Source: Rhizobium sp. TH2 (GTDB lineage: Bacteria; Pseudomonadota; Alphaproteobacteria; Rhizobiales; Rhizobiaceae). From it: DNA of 64,000 nt. The translations under genes and the position numbers were made by a program. The notes beneath the pieces were generated by a model. That model saw only the letters and a program-made list of their open reading frames with translations, was not told the origin of the DNA and did not search any database. Below are positions 37,479 through 55,742 of this stretch, in pieces. Each line of letters begins with the position of its first letter. The stretch's first letter is position 1. The stretch is from assembly GCF_024707525.1 (NCBI RefSeq), contig NZ_CP062231.1, forward strand, positions 3,906,001 through 3,970,000, read 5' to 3'.

Positions 37479-38309
37479 TTACCAGGTGGTCAGGCGCAGG
37501 CCGGCGCGGAACTCGTGGCGGCCGATGCCATCATCCTGGGCCTTGGGGTTCTTGGCACCCTTCTTCTGTTCGGCCTCGCCATAGTCCGTCATGTCCCCGC
37601 CGGCGATATTGGCATAGCGGTAGCCCAGATCGAGCTTGGTGCGAGGAGCGATATCATAGCTGACGCCGGCCATCAGCGCATAGGTGAAGCGCCAGCTTTC
37701 GATGCCGGACGTCTCCTGGTCCTTGTACGGGATCCCATTGTCGCAGTTCTTGCCGGTGCAATATTTCGAGGTCGTCATGCCTTTCCAGTCGACACTGGCC
37801 ACACCGGCACCGGCGCCGACATAGGGCGTCAGCCCCCAGACCGTGCCGAGATCGACATAGGCATTGGCGAGAAGACCGAGCGAGGCAAGGCTGTCGGTAT
37901 GGCTGTAGCCGCATTTGGTGCTGGCCAATTGCGCGGGAGAACATGATGTGTTCCGCATCGACTTGCCGTCGAAATCTGTCTTGAAATAGTCGAGCGTCAG
38001 GTCGGTACGGAAATAGTCGTTGAACTGGTAGCCGGCGCCGGTGCTGAGGTTGAAATTGCCGTCGAGCCGCGCCGAATCGAATGTCACATTCTCATAGCTG
38101 TTATTGTTGGAACTGTAGTTCTCCCAGCTCGGCTTGCCGGCATCCAGGGACGCGTTGTAGCCGAGATCGCCGCGGATATACCAGCCGCCGACGCCCGAGA
38201 TCGTGCCGGTATATTCCGGCGCTTCGACCGGCGGCGGCAGGTCGAAAGCGAGTGCCGGTGTCGCGACGACTAAAGCCAGGACAGCAAACAGGCTATGGCG
38301 GATCTTCAT
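37479..38309 (-). CDS. Outer-membrane beta-barrel protein (porin-like) 1
   Basis: This 276-residue protein has a Sec signal peptide (MKIRHSLFAVLALVVATPALA). Alternating strands begin at GGWYIRGDLGYNAS and end with a terminal strand HEFRAGLRLTTW, whose final aromatic is typical of BAM substrates. It resembles the small rhizobial/Brucella Omp25-type barrel family. Four cysteines in two loops (CSPAQLASTKC and CTGKNC) are unusual. GAGGAAATTGCC precedes the chosen ATG. It is paralogous to the barrel at 42847-43680, and a perfect CtrA box lies 73-87 bp upstream of the start. Confidence 0.82.
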   Translation of the reverse strand: MKIRHSLFAVLALVVATPALAFDLPPPVEAPEYTGTISGVGGWYIRGDLGYNASLDAGKPSWENYSSNNNSYENVTFDSARLDGNFNLSTGAGYQFNDYFRTDLTLDYFKTDFDGKSMRNTSCSPAQLASTKCGYSHTDSLASLGLLANAYVDLGTVWGLTPYVGAGAGVASVDWKGMTTSKYCTGKNCDNGIPYKDQETSGIESWRFTYALMAGVSYDIAPRTKLDLGYRYANIAGGDMTDYGEAEQKKGAKNPKAQDDGIGRHEFRAGLRLTTW

Positions 38310-38381
38310 GGCAATTTCCTCGCGACGCGGCCGGCGCAAACCAGCCAGAATTCGATTTGGAAAAACTATGCCAAGGAGAGG

Positions 38382-38396
38382 TTAACCCTGAGTTAA
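38382..38396 (-). promoter_or_regulatory. Perfect CtrA box upstream of barrel gene 1
   Basis: TTAACCCTGAGTTAA matches the CtrA consensus TTAA-N7-TTAA exactly and starts 73 bp before the barrel start codon. CtrA control of outer-membrane proteins has been reported in Brucella. Binding here is inferred from the motif. Confidence 0.7.
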
Positions 38397-38456
38397 GCAT
38401 GTTTCGAGAGAGAGCGTTTACCGTGTTTGTTAAGGAAAGCGGATCAACCCTCCCGC

Positions 38457-38825
38457 CTAGTCGCCCTCATCCGGGTTCACCTCACGTATACGATCTTTGA
38501 CGATTTTGGATTTCGTGGAAACGTAGACGAGTAGGAAGAACGGAATCATGCCGATGTACATGTTGATACCTGTATACTTTGTGATCAGGAACGTCATGAC
38601 GGCATAGAGTGTAATGGCGCTGCCGGCGATCAAACCGAAGCGAAGAGAATACGGTTTACCCTTGCCTCCCCATCCGAGATAGAGTGACAGGGCCATCCAG
38701 CAAATCAGGACAAATGTCGATGGCCCCCATTCGGAATGCCAGAAAGGACGCAGAAGCATTGTCCCAACAATGATGGGGGTGCCTATCAACAGGCTTAAGA
38801 AGTAAGTTTTCAGTCCGTTGTTCAT
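38457..38825 (-). CDS. Small four-helix membrane protein, unknown
   Basis: This 122-residue protein has four hydrophobic segments (FLSLLIGTPIIVGTMLL, FVLICWMALSLYLGW, FGLIAGSAITLYAVMTFLI, YIGMIPFFLLVYVS) and a charged C-terminus KIVKDRIREVNPDEGD. GAGAGACGC lies upstream of the ATG. Lower GC than neighbours suggests an accessory gene. I do not recognise the family. Confidence 0.6.
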   Translation of the reverse strand: MNNGLKTYFLSLLIGTPIIVGTMLLRPFWHSEWGPSTFVLICWMALSLYLGWGGKGKPYSLRFGLIAGSAITLYAVMTFLITKYTGINMYIGMIPFFLLVYVSTKSKIVKDRIREVNPDEGD

Positions 38826-39000
38826 TTTGCGTCTCTCGCTAAAGAGACAATGCTAGCGGGTGTTGGCTGACTAATTCGATAATCCAAAAAGTAGAATCTT
38901 TCCCGACCAACTACCTCTCCAGTCCCGCCATCATTCTTGATATTCGGCGTGTACCGGTTTCGCGCGCGGACCGGCATGCCCGGTCGTTCCTGCCCAACCT

Positions 39001-40247
39001 TCAGGCAGTCGATGCGAGGCTTGCACTATTTTCCACAAGCCTCTCCACCAGCAGGGCCGCCTCCTTCGCGATCCCCGGTACAATGCCGGAATTCCGCGTC
39101 GATGCGAACTCGAGGCCGTAGAAATAGAGACCGGGAACCGTGGCGACGCCATCCTCATGGATGGGCTGGCCATCGGCACCGAGGGCGCCTGGGACATGGA
39201 CCCAGGAGAAGTCGCCCGTGAAGCCCGTGCACCAGATCACCGTTCCGAGGTCGCTTGCCTGCCAGTCGAGCGCGCGGATCGGGGGATCGGGCAGGCGCGG
39301 CTCGACCGTCTCGGCGGGGTCGTCCTCGGCCGGCGGCGCATCGAGACCGGCGCGCTCGATGTACTCATCGACCAGGCGCTTGGTGTTTGCGGAGACCTCG
39401 TCGGCAAATCTGAGATGCTCGGGAACTTCGTCGCCGAAAATCAGGCTGCCGTCCTCCACGCCCCTGAAGCGGCCGAGCAGGACCACACCCTCGGCGCTCA
39501 ACGATTGCAGGCTGATCGTATGCGTCGGGCCGACCAGCGCGCGGGTCGGCACCCTGCCGGCCAGGCGGATCACCTCTTCACGGCGGACATCCATGAAGCC
39601 GGAAAGCGTCAGCAGTGAAGCAGGACGCTTCCACGGTAGGTCCGCACCCAGCGGCCGGTGCGGCTGGTCGCGAGAAACACCTTGCGCCCGGCCAATACCA
39701 GATCCTCGGTAATCTGGGCGCCCGACTGCCCGCTGCCGACGACCAGAACCGCGCCGGGCGCAAGGGCATCGGCACTGCGGTATGCGGGACAATCGACCTG
39801 GGCAATCGCATCAGGCAAGTCCGCCGACATGGGCGGCCGGACGGGTCGATTCTGGTCGCCGGTGGCGATCACCACATTGCGCGCCAGCAGCACGCCATCC
39901 GATGTGGTGACCCGAAACATCCCCTGGTCCGCTGCCAGTTCCGTCACGCGGGTCCGGATGCTGACCGGCAGATGGTGCCGTTCCGCATAGTTTTCGAGAT
40001 ACGAGACGAAATCCTGGCAGGTCATCGCACCCCAGGGGTCCGTGCCCTCATAGGTATCGCCCGGCAGCAGGGAGCGGATGGTGGGCGAGTTCAGCAGAAA
40101 CGAATCCCACCGCTGGGTCCGCCATGTCTCGGCGATGCGGCCTCCATCGAGCACCCTGTGCCTGAGGCCTTGCCGGCTCAGGAAATAGCTGACGCCGAGC
40201 CCTGCCGACCCGGCGCCTATCACGATGACGTCGAGAATATCGCCCAT
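39001..40247 (-). pseudogene. Flavin-containing monooxygenase-like protein, frameshifted
   Basis: Two overlapping frames together make one CzcO-type FAD/NADPH oxidoreductase. The first (40247 to 39609) holds the FAD motif VIVIGAGSAGLGVSYFLSRQ and the NADPH motif VLVVGSGQSGAQITEDLV, and ends after WVRTYRG. The second frame resumes near 39630 (LLTLSGFMDVRREEVIRL) and runs to 39001, with VIWCTGFTGDFSW and a normal C-terminus PGLYFYGLEFASTRNSGIVP. A single-base loss around 39624-39635 would explain the break. Either the gene is recently dead or there is a sequencing error; everything else is well preserved. GGGGGACAAGC precedes the start. Confidence 0.75.
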
Positions 40248-40444
40248 GCTTGTCCCCCGCTGGAAAGGCTGGCCGCATCCTACGCCTTCGCTTCGGCCTC
40301 GGGCAAGACCAGGCTGGATGTAAAGCTGGGAGGTTCATTTTCGCAGACACGCCCGTTCCGCTGGGAATGATGCTGGACGTTGTACCAAGATGCCCGCCTG
40401 CGCTATGGATCTCACAAAAGCGAATGACAAGCGGGAGGACGGCA

Positions 40445-41446
40445 ATGCCCATTACACGCGTTGGAATCATAGGCACTGGCGTCATGGGCAGCGATCACGC
40501 CCGCATTCTCGCCTCATGCGTCGCCGGAGCCGAGCTTGCCGGCGTCTTCGATGTTGATCAAGCGCGTGCCGTCTCGCTGGCGGAGGAGACCGGCGCGCGC
40601 GTCTTCGATGGTGCCACTGCTCTTATCGCCGACCAAGGCATCGATGCGATTATTGTCTGCTCGCCAGACGCGACCCACAGCGAACTGGCGCTCGCCTGTA
40701 TTGCGGCAGGCAAGCCGGCTCTGGTGGAAAAGCCGCTCGCGAGCACGGTTGCCGGTGCCGTCGATGTCATGAAGGCAGAGACGACGGGTGGCCGGCGGTT
40801 GATACAGGTGGGTTTCACGCGCCGTTTCGACCCCGGCTACATCGCTATGAAAGAGGCGTTGGCAAGCGACCGCCTCGGCCAGGCGCTGTTTCTCCACTGC
40901 ATCCACCGCAATGCCGTCGGGCCGGACTACCTGACGTCGGAACTGGTGATCGCCAGCAGTGCCGGCCATGAATTCGACATCACGCGCTTCCTGCTCGAGG
41001 ACGAGATCGTTTCCGCAACCGTAGCCAGTCCGCGTGCGAGCAGGCTCGCGCCGAACCGTCAGCCGCAATTCATCCTGCTGGAAACGGCGAGCGGCGTCAT
41101 CGTCGATATCGAGGTCTTCGTCGATTGCATCTATGGCTACGACGTGCGTGCGGAACTTGTCTGCGAGAAGGGCACCGTGTCGCTCAACACCTCGCCGGCG
41201 ACAATGCTCCGCCATGCCGGCTACGACGGTTTCGAAACGCCGCCCGACTGGCGTGACAGATTCAAGCATGCCTATCGCCAACAGTTGCAGGGCTGGATCG
41301 ACGCGATCCACGGCATGCCCAACCACGGCGCCAGCACCTGGGACGGCTACCGCTCCATGAAAGTGACCGAGGCCTGCCTCGCGGCCTGCCGGAGCGGCCA
41401 GAAGACCGCCGTGCCGGTCGAAGAGATGCCAACATTCTACCGCTAA
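40445..41446 (+). CDS. Gfo/Idh/MocA-family oxidoreductase
   Basis: This 333-residue NAD(P)-dependent sugar or inositol dehydrogenase-like protein has an N-terminal Rossmann fold (VGIIGTGVMGSDHARIL) and the family signature VEKPLASTVAGA with its active-site lysine. QVGFTRRFDPGY and SAGHEFDITRFLL carry the histidine/aspartate pair, and a C-terminal alpha/beta domain follows. It resembles inositol 2-dehydrogenases (IolG-like), but without iol neighbours the substrate is open. GGGAGGACGGCA precedes the ATG at 40445, although the frame is open earlier. The next gene follows after 13 bp. Confidence 0.85.
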   Translation: MPITRVGIIGTGVMGSDHARILASCVAGAELAGVFDVDQARAVSLAEETGARVFDGATALIADQGIDAIIVCSPDATHSELALACIAAGKPALVEKPLASTVAGAVDVMKAETTGGRRLIQVGFTRRFDPGYIAMKEALASDRLGQALFLHCIHRNAVGPDYLTSELVIASSAGHEFDITRFLLEDEIVSATVASPRASRLAPNRQPQFILLETASGVIVDIEVFVDCIYGYDVRAELVCEKGTVSLNTSPATMLRHAGYDGFETPPDWRDRFKHAYRQQLQGWIDAIHGMPNHGASTWDGYRSMKVTEACLAACRSGQKTAVPVEEMPTFYR

Positions 41447-41459
41447 CCACGGAGTTCCC

Positions 41460-42059
41460 ATGCCGCCTGTGAAAGTCGATCCTGACAAGGTTCATGAATT
41501 CGTCGATGAGCAGCGCTTCTACAACTGGCTCGAACAGCACCATGACAGCGAGGACGAGGTGTGGATAAAGATCCACAAGGTCGGGTCGGGGCTGAAATCG
41601 ATCACGCCGAAAGAGGCGATCGACGCGGTGCTCTGCTGGGGCTGGATCGATGCAGTGCGGAAAGGCCTTGACGACAAGAGCTATCTGCAGCGCTACACGC
41701 GGCGCACCCGGAAGAGCATCTGGAGCAAGATCAATGTCGAGAATGTCGCCCGGCTGATCAAGGCGGGCCGCATGACCGAACACGGATTGAAAGAAGTCGA
41801 GGCGGCCAAGGCGGACGGTCGCTGGGATCGCGCCTATGGCAGCGGCAAGGAGATGAAGATCCCCGACGATCTGCAGGCCGCGATCGATGCCGAGCCGAAG
41901 GCGAAGGAGATGCTCGGCAAATTGAGCGCGCAGAACCGCTTCGCGCTGGCATTCCGCACCCATCACATGAAGACCGAGGCGGGACGCAAGAAGAAGATCG
42001 AGACTCTGGTGGATATGCTCATGCGTGGCGAGACGATCTATCCGCAACGCGCGAAATAG
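41460..42059 (+). CDS. YdeI/OmpD-associated family protein
   Basis: This 199-residue soluble protein matches the YdeI/OmpD-associated family. EVWIKIHKVGSGLKSITPKEAIDAVLCW, GWIDAVRKGLDDKSYLQRYT and RRTRKSIWSKINVENVARLI are the conserved core, and a lysine-rich C-terminus follows. Function in the cell is poorly known. It lies 13 bp after the Gfo/Idh/MocA gene and may share its transcript. Confidence 0.82.
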   Translation: MPPVKVDPDKVHEFVDEQRFYNWLEQHHDSEDEVWIKIHKVGSGLKSITPKEAIDAVLCWGWIDAVRKGLDDKSYLQRYTRRTRKSIWSKINVENVARLIKAGRMTEHGLKEVEAAKADGRWDRAYGSGKEMKIPDDLQAAIDAEPKAKEMLGKLSAQNRFALAFRTHHMKTEAGRKKKIETLVDMLMRGETIYPQRAK

Positions 42060-42231
42060 CATTCCGACGGAGAGGCAGAGAACCTGCCCTTAACCCCGCG
42101 CCTTCGAAAAGTCCCAATGGAAAGTGAAGGATTGGACTGTGTCGGCGGCATCTTGAGATGCACGAGCCCGATGGTTGAGTAGCGTTCACCTCTGGGTGCG
42201 GCGGCCAACGGCAATTGAGAAGGACAGTTCA

Positions 42232-42765
42232 ATGGACAAGACAATTATCACGGCTCTCGCCGCAACCGCGCTGGCGATCATGGGCGGCATGGCGGCCCGC
42301 GCCGCGGACACGCTCATCGTCGAGGAACCTCCGGTCGCGGTGGAACAGGATGTCGAAGGAGGCGTGAAGATCGGAACGCTCACCTGCGATATCGGCAATG
42401 GCGGTGGTTATGTCCTGGGTTCGGCCAAGGAGCTCGATTGCGTCTTCCATTCGAGTTTCCGCGGCGATCCCCCGGACCGCTACGCGGGCTCGGTCAAGAA
42501 ACTCGGCATCGATCTGGGCTATACCGCTCAGGGCCGGCTCATCTGGGCGGTGTTCGCGCCGACGGCGGGATATCATCGCGGCTCGCTGGGCGGCGTCTAC
42601 TACGGCGCATCCGCCGAAGCGACGCTCGGCGCCGGCGTCGGCGCCAATGTGCTGTTGGGCGGCACCAAGGGTTCGATCCAGTTGCAGCCCCTCAGTGTTG
42701 CCGGCCAGCTTGGCCTCAATGTCGCTGCGGCAGGTACCACGGTGACCCTCGCTTCGGTTCGTTGA
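42232..42765 (+). CDS. DUF992 exported protein
   Basis: This 177-residue protein has a signal peptide (MDKTIITALAATALAIMGGM, cleavage after AARA-A). It carries the DUF992 pattern of KIGTLTCDIGNGGGYVLGSAK, ELDCVFHS and a glycine/alanine-rich tail (YYGASAEATLGAGVGANVLL). Two cysteines flank the conserved strand pair. The family is periplasmic and typical of Hyphomicrobiales; function is unknown. AGAAGGACAGTTC precedes the ATG. A two-way terminator follows. Confidence 0.82.
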   Translation: MDKTIITALAATALAIMGGMAARAADTLIVEEPPVAVEQDVEGGVKIGTLTCDIGNGGGYVLGSAKELDCVFHSSFRGDPPDRYAGSVKKLGIDLGYTAQGRLIWAVFAPTAGYHRGSLGGVYYGASAEATLGAGVGANVLLGGTKGSIQLQPLSVAGQLGLNVAAAGTTVTLASVR

Positions 42766-42796
42766 TTCGTCTACCAACAACGCATAAACAAAGGAA

Positions 42797-42823
42797 AACC
42801 GCCCATCGCTGGGCGGTTTTTAC
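42797..42823. terminator. Bidirectional terminator between DUF992 and barrel gene 2
   Basis: AACCGCCCA (42797-42805) pairs with TGGGCGGTT (42810-42818) around TCGC, with A-run before and T-run after. It can terminate both the rightward DUF992 gene and the leftward barrel gene. Confidence 0.9.
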
Positions 42824-42846
42824 ATTTCATGAATTGGCAGGCTGTC

Positions 42847-43680
42847 TTACTTGAAGACCGGCTGCTCGGCCGGAAGTTCGGCCGGTGGCATGTAGGCTAC
42901 CGGGCACGCGTCACCGAACTGATAGCGGATACCGGAGCGGACTTCGTGGATATCAAAGCCCTTGTCTGAGCCGGGGCCGCCGTTAAGCTTGCGACCGAAC
43001 ATGCTGCCGCCGTCCACATGGCGGTAACGATAGCCGACATCGGCCTTCCATTGGCAATTGATGTCGATCGAGGTGCCGGCCATCAGGGCGTAGGTGAAGC
43101 GCCAGCTGTCCTTGCCCTTGTGCGTCACAGTGTCGTCGCAGCCGCCGCCACCCGCTGCGCAGGCAGTGTTCTTCAAATCACCCCAGTTGATGTAGGTGGT
43201 ACCGAGACCGGCGCCGACATAAGGCGTGAACACGCCCCAGCGGTAGATGTCGACATAAGCGTTCGCCATCAGGCTGAAGGCCTTGAACGAAGACGCATCG
43301 GTCGAAACGCACTTGACATCGCAAGCGCTGCCGTCGTTAGAACCGCCACCCTTCGTCGACCCACGGAACTTGGTCGAGAACATATAGTCGAAAGTCTTGT
43401 CGACGCGGAAGTAGTCATTGATCTGGTAACCGACACCGAAGCCAAGGTTCCCGGTGTCGTCGAGGTCAACGTCGCTAAAACTCGCGTTGTCTCTTCCGGC
43501 TTTGTAATCGACGCCATCTGAACTCATGAAGTCGTAGGAGATGTCCTTGCGCAGATACCAGCCGCCGGTGGGCAGCGGTTCGACGGCTTCCGGAGCGGGT
43601 GCGGGTTCGACAAAGTCAGCCGCGTAGGCCGGTGCCGACAGCACCGCCAGGACGGATGCGAATGCCAGAATTCTCTTCAT
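42847..43680 (-). CDS. Outer-membrane beta-barrel protein (porin-like) 2
   Basis: This 277-residue protein has signal peptide MKRILAFASVLAVLSAPAYA and a proline/glutamate-rich spacer. A barrel starts GGWYLRKDISYDF and includes DYFRVDKTFDYMF, FSLMANAYVDIYRWGVFTPY and HEVRSGIRYQFGD. It shares the layout, ALMAGVSYDI/ALMAGTSIDI segments and loop cysteine pairs (CDVKC and CAAGGGGC) with the barrel at 37479-38309, so the two are paralogs. The terminal segment after YQFGD (CPVAYMPPAELPAEQPVFK) is an unusual extension beyond the usual last strand. A perfect CtrA box lies 82-96 bp upstream. Confidence 0.82.
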   Translation of the reverse strand: MKRILAFASVLAVLSAPAYAADFVEPAPAPEAVEPLPTGGWYLRKDISYDFMSSDGVDYKAGRDNASFSDVDLDDTGNLGFGVGYQINDYFRVDKTFDYMFSTKFRGSTKGGGSNDGSACDVKCVSTDASSFKAFSLMANAYVDIYRWGVFTPYVGAGLGTTYINWGDLKNTACAAGGGGCDDTVTHKGKDSWRFTYALMAGTSIDINCQWKADVGYRYRHVDGGSMFGRKLNGGPGSDKGFDIHEVRSGIRYQFGDACPVAYMPPAELPAEQPVFK

Positions 43681-43761
43681 GATCAATACTCCACCTAACC
43701 GTGCCAGGCTGAAGAGCCGGCTCTTGAATTTCGGATCAGGTTGAATCATGAACGAGAATGG

Positions 43762-43776
43762 TTAAGGCACGCTTAA
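43762..43776 (-). promoter_or_regulatory. Perfect CtrA box upstream of barrel gene 2
   Basis: TTAAGGCACGCTTAA fits TTAA-N7-TTAA exactly and starts 82 bp before the start codon. Additional half-sites GGTTAAGG (near 43813) and TTAACCAT (near 43844), and a GANTC site at 43743-43747, lie in the same gap. Confidence 0.7.
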
Positions 43777-43900
43777 ACTGGCCCATCATGGTGCAAGATT
43801 TGCTAACCGGCTTGGTTAAGGATGTGAAAATGCCGACATTGCCTTAACCATACTTCTGCGTTTGAGCACAACTACAGCATTATGAACTGGAATTCTGGAT

Positions 43901-45556
43901 TTACCGGCCTCGGCCGCCGAAGGCGCGGTTCATCGCCATCGGCCGGATCACGGTTTCCTGGCGCAGGCTCTCGTCGCGCCTGTCCTCGAGTTCCTCCAGC
44001 ATGACCGGCCGGGAGAAATAATAGCCCTGGACATAGCGGATGCTGGTGCAGGCCTTGAGATAGGCGAGCTCTTCGAACGTCTCCAGACCCTCGACGATGA
44101 CATCCATGCCGAGCGAGCGGCTGAGCGCCTCCACGGCTTTCAGGATATTCTGGCTGCGTGGCCGTTGGTGCAGGTTGGTGATGAACGAGCGGTCGATCTT
44201 CACCTCGTCGGCGGTGATATCGGCCAGCGCCGAGAGCGATGAATAGCCGACACCGAAATCGTCGATCGAGACACGCGCACCGATCTCGCGGATCAGCGGC
44301 AGCACGCTCTCCTGGAAGGTGCTCTTCGACACGAAGGCCTCCTCGGTGATTTCGAGAATGAAGCGCGTGGCGAATTCCGTCGCCGCAATACGCGCCAGCA
44401 ACTCGCGCATGAACTTTATATCGCCCGCCTGCTTGGCCGCCACATTGAGGCTGATCGATGCCGTCTCTCCGAATGCCTCGTTGAGGCGGTCGATCGATCG
44501 GACCGTCTTGTCGAGTACGAGGTAGGTCAGGTCGTCCATCAAGCCAAGGTCGATGGCAAGTGCGATGAAATCGCCCGGCGGCTGGATCACGCCGTCCTCG
44601 TCGATCCAGCGCAGCAGCACTTCGACGCCGCAGACATTGCCCGTCAGGATATCCATCTTGGGCTGGTAGGCGCAACTGACGCGGCGGTCGCGGATCGCCA
44701 GCCTGAGGCGCTGCTCCAGCCGGCTCTTTTCGATCGCCGCATGCTCGATCGTGGCATCGAAGAACTGAACGGAGCCGGTGCCGACCGCCTTGCCGCGATA
44801 CATCGCCCTGTCGGCATTCGCCGTCAGCGCATCGTAGCTCGCTCCATCATCAGGGAAAACGCTGACGCCGATTGACGCAGACGTCAGGATCTCGTTGCCC
44901 TCGATATAGAAAGGCTCTTTCAGGCGATCGCTGATCACGTCGATATCGTGGCCGAGCCGGTCGAGATCGGCGATCGGCGAAAGCAGGAGGAGGAATTCAT
45001 CGCCGCTGAGCCGCGCCAGCATGTCGGACTCGCGCAATCCGGACGCCACCCGCTCGGCGATCTGGATCAGCAGCGCATCGCCGACATTGTGGCCGTAGAA
45101 ATCGTTGACGTGCTTGAAGCCGTCGACATCGATGAAGGCGAGCGCAAAAGGCGCCGCACCCGGGCCGATGAGAGCATTGACGCTCTGCTCGATGACGCGG
45201 CGGTTCGGCAGGCCGGTCAGTTCGTCGAAATAGGCGCGCCGTATCAGCGCCTGCTCGCGGGTCATCTGCTCGGTCTCATCGACCAGCAGCGACACCGTGT
45301 ACGGCTTGCCGCCGAGGGTGAAATCGAAGGACCGGGTCTTGAGCACGCCGTCCACTCCCTGACCGGCAACCGCGGCGGAAAGCCACGCAAAGCTCTCGTT
45401 GGCATAGGCGACCTCGCCCGCAGGGCCGGCAATCTGCATGCCGAAGGGCAGCACGTCGAGCATGTGCCCGAGATCAGGCGCGGACGCGACAACGCCGGCC
45501 GCATCCACTTGCGGCCCGAGCGGATCGTCCATCCATTCCGTGTCTGGATTGCGCAT
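43901..45556 (-). CDS. GGDEF-EAL domain c-di-GMP protein
   Basis: This 551-residue protein has a PAS-like N-terminus (about 25-95), a GGDEF domain (about 105-270) with SGDEF at 184-188, and an EAL domain (about 280-530) with EVLLRW at 312-317. The EAL metal and catalytic residues look largely present (SLNVAAK, EITEEAF, DDFGVGYSSL, DEVKIDRSF, EGLET). SGDEF keeps the catalytic GDEF core, so both synthesis and breakdown of c-di-GMP are possible. No membrane segment is obvious. It starts 33 bp after the HerA-type gene and is probably co-transcribed with it. Confidence 0.88.
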   Translation of the reverse strand: MRNPDTEWMDDPLGPQVDAAGVVASAPDLGHMLDVLPFGMQIAGPAGEVAYANESFAWLSAAVAGQGVDGVLKTRSFDFTLGGKPYTVSLLVDETEQMTREQALIRRAYFDELTGLPNRRVIEQSVNALIGPGAAPFALAFIDVDGFKHVNDFYGHNVGDALLIQIAERVASGLRESDMLARLSGDEFLLLLSPIADLDRLGHDIDVISDRLKEPFYIEGNEILTSASIGVSVFPDDGASYDALTANADRAMYRGKAVGTGSVQFFDATIEHAAIEKSRLEQRLRLAIRDRRVSCAYQPKMDILTGNVCGVEVLLRWIDEDGVIQPPGDFIALAIDLGLMDDLTYLVLDKTVRSIDRLNEAFGETASISLNVAAKQAGDIKFMRELLARIAATEFATRFILEITEEAFVSKSTFQESVLPLIREIGARVSIDDFGVGYSSLSALADITADEVKIDRSFITNLHQRPRSQNILKAVEALSRSLGMDVIVEGLETFEELAYLKACTSIRYVQGYYFSRPVMLEELEDRRDESLRQETVIRPMAMNRAFGGRGR

Positions 45557-45589
45557 GCCGAATCCTCGATTGGCGATCGTCGCCTTCGA

Positions 45590-47392
45590 CTAGAATTTGT
45601 TCCGTCGCGAAAGCAGGCCCTCGCCGGCAAGTGCTGCCTGCAGGCCACGCGTCAGGGCATTCTGGCCCCCCGCAGCGTCCGGCTGCACCGATGGCTCCTG
45701 CGGAATTGGAGCCATGGGTTCGCCGGGAACGCCCGCCGGTGTGCTGGTCGCACGGCGCCAGCGGTCGATGGCTTTTTCCACATTGGCGGCGCGCTCGGCG
45801 TCCGTCAGATGCATGCCGTTGGTGAGCTGATCGCTCGACGGAAGACGCTCGCGCGGCAGGCGCCGGAAGGAGAAGCGCATCGGCAAGGGCATCGCCTCGC
45901 CCACGCCCACGACTTCGCCGGTACCGAGCGACGGCACCAGCAGGAGCAGATTGCTCGCCGCATCGGCCACCGCCGAGCGCAGCAGACTGTGATCCCGCTC
46001 GTTGGACATGCGCATCATGAAGAGGGTCGAGCATTGCGACACGATGGTCGGATCGAGTTCGGCCGGACGCTGAGTGACGAGGCCCAGATGGACGCCATAC
46101 TTGCGGCCTTCCTTTGCGATGCGCGACAATGCCCGGCGCGCCGGTGCAAAGCCGATCGAGTGATCGGCGGCGGCGAAGCGGTGCGCTTCCTCGCAGACGA
46201 TCAGCAGCGGCGTGCCGCCATCGCTCCACAGGCCGAATTCGAAGGCCAGGCGCAACACCACGCAGACCACGGCATCGACCACCTCGCCCGGAAATTCCGC
46301 GAGCTTGAGCAGGGTGACACCGGTGCGGTTGGTGTTGACCGCGAAGAGCTGGCCGAGCACCGAGGCCATCGTGTCGCCGCCGACATTGGCGTTTTCGAAC
46401 ATGAAGGCATAGCGCGGATCGTTGCGGATCGTCTCGATGCGCGCCATCAGGCGGTGATGCACCATGCGTGTCGCGCGGTTTTCCAGCTTGCCCATGCGAT
46501 CATCGATCAGGGACACCAGATCCTGGATCATATAGGGCGCGGGCGTATCGACTGTGAAGCCGCTCTGGCGCGGATGGCGCCTGGCGAGCAGCGACCGTTC
46601 CGCACCGCTCTTGATGCTGGAATAGCTGCTCTTGGCGAGAGGGATCAGTTCGGCAAGAATATCGAGTTCCTCGAGCACCGCCGGTTTGCCGCCATAGATG
46701 GCATCGGTCAGCTCCTCGAAATTGAACAGCCAGAAGGGAAGCTTGAGGCTGTCCGGATCGACCACGGTCGATCGAGCGCCAAAACTGTTGGAATATTCGT
46801 TGTGCACATCGAGCAGCAGGACGCGGACATCCGGACGCGCATTGACCAGCTCGTTCAGGATCACGGCAGTGCCGGAGGATTTACCGACGCCGGTGGAGCC
46901 AAGTACCGCGAAATGCTTGGTGAACAGGCCCTCGGCATCGATATACGCCGGAACGCCACCATCTTCCTGCACTTCGCCGATCTTCAAGGGCTGGCCGGAG
47001 AAGGAGGAATAGATCAGGTGGAGATTGTCCCGCCCGAGCAGTTCGACTTCGTCGCCGATTGCCGGATATTCGCGCACACCGCGATCGAACTTGATCGACC
47101 CATCCGCTGCGAAGGTAATCTCGCCCATGAGATCGACTTGAGCCACCGCATGGCAATTTGCCATGCTCCCCGTGGAGGCAGCAGCCGAAATTTCGCTGAT
47201 CATGCCGACCGAAGCGCCCTTGCCATGCTTGAGCGCCACGAACTTGCCGACAGTGGCGCGCGGCATTTCCGCCGCCGAACGTCGGATGAGACCGACATGG
47301 GCCTGCGATCCACGGCAGGACAGAACACTACCAAGCAGGCTGCCCCGCAATGGATTTCCAGACGACGACGGCCCGTTGTCTTCGAGGTTCAT
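45590..47392 (-). CDS. HerA-type ATP-binding protein (DUF87)
   Basis: This 600-residue FtsK/HerA superfamily ATPase has an N-terminal HAS-barrel-like beta domain (about 15-130) with GKFVALKHG, then Walker A GSTGVGKSS (165-173). The Walker B-like LLDVHNEYS and TPLLIVCEEAHRF follow, then the sensor RIAKEGRKYGVHLGLVTQRP and SQCSTLFMMRMSNERD. HerA ATPases form hexameric DNA translocases that usually pair with NurA nuclease or with Sir2-type defence partners. No NurA is present. The downstream co-directional gene is a GGDEF-EAL protein, and a perfect CtrA box lies 74-88 bp upstream. The role is unknown; a cell-cycle-linked DNA function is one inference. Confidence 0.85.
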   Translation of the reverse strand: MNLEDNGPSSSGNPLRGSLLGSVLSCRGSQAHVGLIRRSAAEMPRATVGKFVALKHGKGASVGMISEISAAASTGSMANCHAVAQVDLMGEITFAADGSIKFDRGVREYPAIGDEVELLGRDNLHLIYSSFSGQPLKIGEVQEDGGVPAYIDAEGLFTKHFAVLGSTGVGKSSGTAVILNELVNARPDVRVLLLDVHNEYSNSFGARSTVVDPDSLKLPFWLFNFEELTDAIYGGKPAVLEELDILAELIPLAKSSYSSIKSGAERSLLARRHPRQSGFTVDTPAPYMIQDLVSLIDDRMGKLENRATRMVHHRLMARIETIRNDPRYAFMFENANVGGDTMASVLGQLFAVNTNRTGVTLLKLAEFPGEVVDAVVCVVLRLAFEFGLWSDGGTPLLIVCEEAHRFAAADHSIGFAPARRALSRIAKEGRKYGVHLGLVTQRPAELDPTIVSQCSTLFMMRMSNERDHSLLRSAVADAASNLLLLVPSLGTGEVVGVGEAMPLPMRFSFRRLPRERLPSSDQLTNGMHLTDAERAANVEKAIDRWRRATSTPAGVPGEPMAPIPQEPSVQPDAAGGQNALTRGLQAALAGEGLLSRRNKF

Positions 47393-47465
47393 AAGTCTCT
47401 CCAGAGTAAATCTGCTGGAGAGTAGGCCTGCGACTGCTAAAGAATTACTACGAGATACGGGCGGC

Positions 47466-47480
47466 TTAAATCGCAGTTAA
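47466..47480 (-). promoter_or_regulatory. Perfect CtrA box upstream of HerA-type gene
   Basis: TTAAATCGCAGTTAA fits TTAA-N7-TTAA exactly, starting 74 bp before the HerA start, in the 121-bp gap after glmM. The spacing to the start codon is nearly the same as for the two outer-membrane barrel genes. Confidence 0.7.
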
Positions 47481-55589: not shown

Positions 55590-55742
55590 GGCCTGCTCCT
55601 AAGTCTTAATAATCACGGTTTCCAGACTCTAACCCGGTGGGGTTAACCTCGTTTCAACGATCGTGGTTAACAAACCGGAAATTGGCGCCTATTTCATAAA
55701 ATCCTAATGAAACAGCCGCCGGCATTCTCCTCATGAATGCGC

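Follow-up and report, generated by a model that had tools for sequence, protein, structure and literature searches.

The window analyzed here, a stretch of 64,000 nucleotides of the genome of Rhizobium sp. TH2 (NZ_CP062231.1, positions 3,906,001 to 3,970,000), contained exactly three perfect copies of the CtrA box TTAA-N7-TTAA, located at positions 38382-38396, 43762-43776, and 47466-47480. The first two precede genes encoding related outer-membrane beta-barrel proteins, further referred to as porin 1 and porin 2, and the third one precedes a gene encoding a HerA-type ATPase (herA). All three genes, located on the minus strand, start at 38309, 43680, and 47392, and the box-to-start-codon offsets are 73, 82, and 74 bp, respectively. 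Both the positions and the offsets were given in an earlier note on this DNA, and were borne out by the motif scan of the window and by these start codons. The same note estimated that approximately 0.2 boxes would occur by chance in 64 kb. Dinucleotide-preserving shuffles of the window yielded an even lower value (a mean of 0.08 boxes, with three boxes reached in 0/100 shuffles), but the genome itself is already enriched in the motif, with a density of approximately 0.5 motif places per 64 kb, so that a triple in one window is unusual, albeit not extreme. Chance triples inside 9.1 kb would amount to about 0.12 chromosome-wide, as calculated by hand from the genome density. A fourth perfect box was found 2.6 kb past the end of the window (C1:3972624-3972638), 34 bp ahead of a gene coding for a periplasmic binding protein (PF13433).

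Predicted promoters of the porin genes and their conservation

Porin 1 (37479..38309, minus strand; 276 amino acids) and porin 2 (42847..43680, minus strand; 277 amino acids) are approximately 40% identical, possess a signal peptide, and match the outer-membrane beta-barrel family PF13505 with 43.1 and 42 bits, respectively (cut-off 28.7). Both genes are preceded by the full sequence TTAA-N7-TTAAC, reading towards the gene on the minus strand (38382..38396 for porin 1 and 43762..43776 for porin 2), the far ends of the boxes being 87 and 96 bp ahead of the start codons. A -10-like hexamer CATNNT follows 11 bp behind both boxes, namely the predicted -10 elements CATAGT (38365..38370, minus strand) for porin 1 and CATGAT (43745..43750, minus strand) for porin 2. 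If CATNNT is indeed the -10 element, the box would cover positions from about -38 to -24. The longest open reading frame of porin 2 starts at 43749, within the predicted -10 element, and the start codon at 43680, before the signal peptide, is the better choice. Automatic annotation could lengthen porin 2 by 23 residues (43681-43749).

The name adhesin Adr was not used for these proteins, as both scored approximately 70 bits against an NCBIfam cut-off of 210, and a search of the PDB with porin 2 gave no match. In Sinorhizobium meliloti, SMc00639 is presumably the gene adjoining serC. The literature naming SMc00637-SMc00639 contained, judged by its titles, nothing on CtrA. SMc00639 is annotated as 'putative heat resistant agglutinin 1 protein' (PMC5498481; this and all further papers are cited for those parts of their texts that were accessible).

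The boxes upstream of the porin genes were conserved at three taxonomic levels. Within the genus, both porins were present in 8/9 genomes, and a perfect box occurred at the corresponding place in 16/16 genes, those of Rhizobium sp. TH2 included (8/8 for each porin); the ninth genome, which is 81% complete, gave no porin match. Secondly, a named set was composed of the best 80 of 86 relatives of porin 2, encompassing the seven relatives from the genus as well as representatives of Rhizobium, Neorhizobium, Ensifer, Agrobacterium, Shinella, Hoeflea, and other genera. In this set, a perfect box was found 90-109 bp before the start codon in 76/80 cases, and the remaining four possess a box with one mismatch at the equivalent place. 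The second porin of these loci carried a perfect box in 41/41 usable cases, one of the 42 loci (L138) being dropped in view of an impossible offset (-5829). Thirdly, at the level of the order, a perfect box occurred upstream of a porin-family member in 35/39 genomes, representing 33 families. These 39 regions were hand-picked from 171/199 genomes with a match, comprising the best listed match of each of the 33 families as well as six further genomes belonging to four of them, and excluding families in which all matches were weak or partial; for one genome (G203), the second match was taken, which lies near a contig end and has no box. Positions in the order-level set are counted from where the protein match begins, and 5/35 boxes lie further upstream than -146.

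Control genes of the named loci had no perfect upstream box (serC, 0/79; glmM, 0/76; ftsH, 0/61), after exclusion of 14 ftsH cases and one glmM case with too short a sequence. A perfect box was found within the upstream 300 bp of DUF992 (3/8) and OmdA (1/1) genes in the named loci; in several of these loci, the genes adjoin a porin gene divergently and may have the upstream region in common with it.

Among the spacers before porin 2, spacer 7 was present in 76/80 loci, and the next commonest spacer in 24. Alignment of these 76 porin 2 promoters revealed that both TTAA halves and the C after the second one are invariant, with variation in the seven spacer bases, and that CATNAT is found 11 bp behind the box, its first A being invariant. 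A further TTAA occurs at -26 in 24/76 of these promoters from the named Rhizobiaceae set. In the order-level set, spacers 9 and 20 were prominent as well (21/39 each), because 19/35 promoters possess an additional TTAA, often as GGTTAA, at a distance of 13 bp upstream of the box.

CtrA boxes and CtrA machinery in the genome

TTAA-N7-TTAA was found at 49 places in the 6.44-Mb genome, and the motif being its own reverse complement, these correspond to 98 orientations. TTAA pairs with spacers of 1 to 25 yielded 251 matches, a number that may hide overlapping pairs, of which about 202 were due to the 24 other spacers, or approximately 8.4 for each of them. Spacer 7 was hence about six-fold enriched, and approximately eight boxes, roughly one in six, are to be expected by chance. 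The reversed motif, with 47 places, was rejected as a background, as AATT pairs are far commoner over all spacings (1143 versus 251). Over 60 box-gene pairs, with genes called by a simple custom script, the box-to-start distance ranged from -8 to 495 bp. The genome-wide scan proposed in the earlier note upheld an enrichment of the motif, at widely varying distances to the start codon.

The genes behind the boxes fit a CtrA regulon, as judged from their Pfam matches. These matches encompass flagellin, a flagellar rod protein, CheW, Hpt, methyl-accepting proteins, Tad pilus proteins, FtsK, FtsW, DUF1465 (which we take to be RcdA), two L,D-transpeptidases and a transglycosylase-transpeptidase, sigma-70, PAS and GGDEF proteins, and a response regulator with two boxes. 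The remaining genes are metabolic ones or have no known function. Three boxes also occurred upstream of genes coding for proteins with RTX-type calcium-binding repeats. With respect to the -10 element, YANNNT was commonest at the porin offset over the 98 orientations (10 versus about 3 elsewhere). The exact composite of box and -10 element matched the genome four times, namely at both porin genes, at FtsK, and at C1:1995767. A copy of this composite with one mismatch lies within the window (55626-55657, minus strand; C1:3961626).

The CtrA machinery itself is encoded close to the window. Indeed, ctrA (C1:3876065-3876766; 422.6 bits, NCBIfam cut-off 350) and chpT (298.8 bits, NCBIfam cut-off 240) form a cluster with eipA approximately 30 kb before the window.

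The herA gene and its upstream box

The third perfect box (47466..47480) lies between glmM and herA. The latter gene (45590..47392, minus strand) encodes an accessory HerA-type ATPase of 600 amino acids (PF01935, 129 bits), and its partner gene (43901..45556, minus strand) encodes a GGDEF-EAL protein (PF00990 and PF00563). A second HerA, 40% identical to the one in the window, is encoded at C1:3189268. The HerA of the window scored high against the PADLOC HerA model and far below the NCBIfam cut-off for anti-phage HerA. A GGDEF-EAL gene, related to cyclic di-guanosine monophosphate, adjoins herA in 9/9 genomes with this HerA type. Both genes are located between glmM and the porin 2 gene in three genomes of the genus, Rhizobium sp. 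TH2 included, and are missing from that place in five, and it is possible that they constitute a mobile module, inserted elsewhere in other genomes.

A perfect box was absent upstream of herA in all eight other genomes with this HerA type, namely two syntenic orthologs (G125 and G126) and six relatives, one of which has a box with one mismatch at another place. As a calibration, the boxes of four genes of our own choice, rather than a random draw, were followed through the nine genomes of the genus. They were retained for FtsK (9/9), DUF1465 (9/9), FtsW (9/9), and an L,D-transpeptidase (8/9, the ninth genome being one mismatch off), amounting to 35/36 in total, and in G125 and G126 alone to 7/8. 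In addition, the TTAAC half of the HerA box is directed away from herA, and a -10-like hexamer at the porin spacing was found beside this box in neither direction. Among the papers naming both CtrA and HerA, those listed were unrelated to the subject.

An alternative explanation would be that all three boxes work, HerA and its GGDEF-EAL partner having come under CtrA control after insertion between glmM and the porin 2 gene. The box is a perfect one, it sits in the glmM-herA intergenic region, and the majority of the perfect boxes in the genome are not due to chance. Its absence from the two syntenic orthologs, in which the calibration boxes were kept in 7/8 cases, and from the six relatives, as well as an orientation and -10 spacing unlike those of the porin promoters, make this explanation rather unlikely. 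The HerA box probably does not indicate an established control of herA, and may represent either a chance match or a recent gain in this lineage alone, both being possible. The claim in the earlier note that all three boxes are functional was strongly supported for the porin boxes, which are kept in the genus, family, and order, but not supported for the HerA box, and conservation upstream of orthologs, the lack of which was named there as a refutation, gave the same division. The argument drawn there from equal offsets turned out to be weak. Distances of -8 to 495 bp occur genome-wide, and the two porin genes are not independent cases, since they are related and have a common promoter layout; for HerA, the equal distance to the start codon was consequently discarded as evidence. 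The HerA outcome illustrates that a perfect box is insufficient by itself, even when its distance to the gene is plausible.

Candidate CtrA control of the porin genes

The boxes at 38382 and 43762 likely represent CtrA binding sites that make up the upstream portion of CtrA-driven promoters of the two related beta-barrel genes, the box at 47466 being a chance match or a private gain. In view of the sequence comparisons, the porin boxes are almost certainly genuine sites, and the cell cycle probably governs when the porins are produced. In the mechanism proposed, phosphorylated CtrA would bind TTAA-N7-TTAAC at about -38 to -24, with the CATNNT -10 element 11 bp further on, and bound CtrA would recruit RNA polymerase to the porin promoters, whereby the porins would be synthesized in that part of the cell cycle in which CtrA is active. 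What the sequences show are the sites with their spacing and conservation, and the presence of genes for CtrA and ChpT; binding of CtrA, activation rather than repression, and timing at the porin genes are inferred.

Several observations weigh against this interpretation. At the order level, one genome of a named family (L222) and both genomes of one family (f27) have one mismatch in the box. The peak at the -10 offset is modest (10/98 orientations, against about three for the remaining offsets), and stricter scoring for TATAAT-like sequences gave the porin offset no preference (4 at 27, 4 at 26). Location outside coding regions was rejected as evidence for the spacer-7 sites, as TTAA pairs with other spacers, in the part of the sequence covered, are equally non-coding (27/28 versus 48/49 for spacer 7). 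Furthermore, no perfect box was found in the 20-kb stretch around ctrA itself. Regarding HerA, the genome-wide ratio taken alone implies that about 5/6 of the perfect boxes are not due to chance, and of the eight genomes compared, just two have the same locus.

CtrA might also bind the porin boxes and repress, or modulate, transcription that is driven by another activator. Indeed, CtrA represses some targets in S. meliloti, such as minCD (PMC4433202), and the additional TTAA that precedes the box in 19/35 order-level promoters suggests more than one bound protein. The constant 11 bp between box and -10 element agrees with an activator positioned next to the polymerase, and the CtrA of S. meliloti is described as chiefly an activator (PMC4433202), which renders repression or modulation improbable. 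Even less credible is a reading of the porin element by another OmpR-type regulator, for instance CenR, which also governs envelope genes in alphaproteobacteria (PMC9275681). The CenR motifs are TGA-N8-TGA in Rhodobacter (PMC9275681) and the inverted repeat AGTCAC-N6-GTGACT in S. meliloti (PMC9561847). As neither of these was present in the porin 2 logo (76 promoters, positions -4 to 45), CenR was rejected as the reader of the element, whereas TTAA-N7-TTAAC is the CtrA motif obtained elsewhere by sequencing of immunoprecipitated chromatin (PMC7200025), and other boxes in the genome precede CtrA-like targets. Finally, chance matches in AT-rich intergenic DNA, of which about eight are expected genome-wide and which would agree with the mostly intergenic location of TTAA pairs of any spacing, have a negligible probability for the porin boxes and were rejected on the basis of their conservation in the genus, the named set, and the order, and of the dominance of spacer 7 (76/80 porin 2 loci versus 24 for the next one).

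CtrA-driven porin promoters can be compared with several known systems. CtrA control of outer-membrane proteins is already known, as the earlier note stated for Brucella, in line with PMC10787603 and PMC10538546; the useful part of the present analysis is the order-wide conservation of the promoter. CtrA occupies many promoters of envelope genes in Brucella abortus (PMC10787603), among them a site upstream of omp25, an outer-membrane beta-barrel gene, as predicted here for the porin genes. However, the omp25 site is located at -389 to -337 (PMC10538546), whereas the porin boxes are promoter-proximal (87 and 96 bp, with the -10 element 11 bp behind). The CtrA regulon of S. meliloti, a close relative, involves the same regulator and motif class, with 198 immunoprecipitation peaks and 54 direct targets, including cell-envelope genes (PMC4433202), and 175 predicted motifs (PMC4433202 and PMC3616915). 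The accessible main-text parts of both papers name no outer-membrane porin, although the supplementary tables may list the orthologs. In a stalked budding alphaproteobacterium of another order, the CtrA consensus from immunoprecipitated chromatin is TTAA-N7-TTAAC, as is the case here (PMC7200025). A comparative paper (PMC2877005) contained none of the outer-membrane terms searched for and no TTAA. A porin promoter with an order-wide conserved CtrA box was not found in the literature searched, most subscription papers and all supplements being outside that search. CtrA targets differ considerably between alphaproteobacteria (PMC4433202), and a box that is kept in 35/39 genomes of 33 families hence represents something that these bacteria retain. 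Whether CtrA times the growth of the outer membrane could thereby be tested cheaply and directly in non-pathogenic rhizobia.

More tentatively, and with somewhat less than even chances, the CtrA promoter of the beta-barrel family may be an ancestral, order-wide part of the Hyphomicrobiales regulon, the barrels and the L,D-transpeptidases that can tether such barrels to the cell wall being timed together. If so, anchoring of the outer membrane would be established at a defined stage of the polar-growth cycle. The sequence AxA followed by AD was found close to where the signal peptide ends in 49/80 relatives of porin 2. Such an AD may be linked to tethering. In Agrobacterium tumefaciens, L,D-transpeptidases tether outer-membrane barrels to the peptidoglycan, and some of their genes are preceded by CtrA motifs predicted in silico (PMC11527210). 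Similarly, two L,D-transpeptidase genes have perfect upstream boxes in Rhizobium sp. TH2. The sites in Agrobacterium are termed atypical in spacing or form (PMC11527210), whereas those found here are perfect and also occur before the barrels themselves. It is this tethering in A. tumefaciens, together with the boxes at two L,D-transpeptidase genes and both porin genes and the AxA-AD sequence in 49/80 porin 2 relatives, that suggests an order-wide timing of barrel anchoring.

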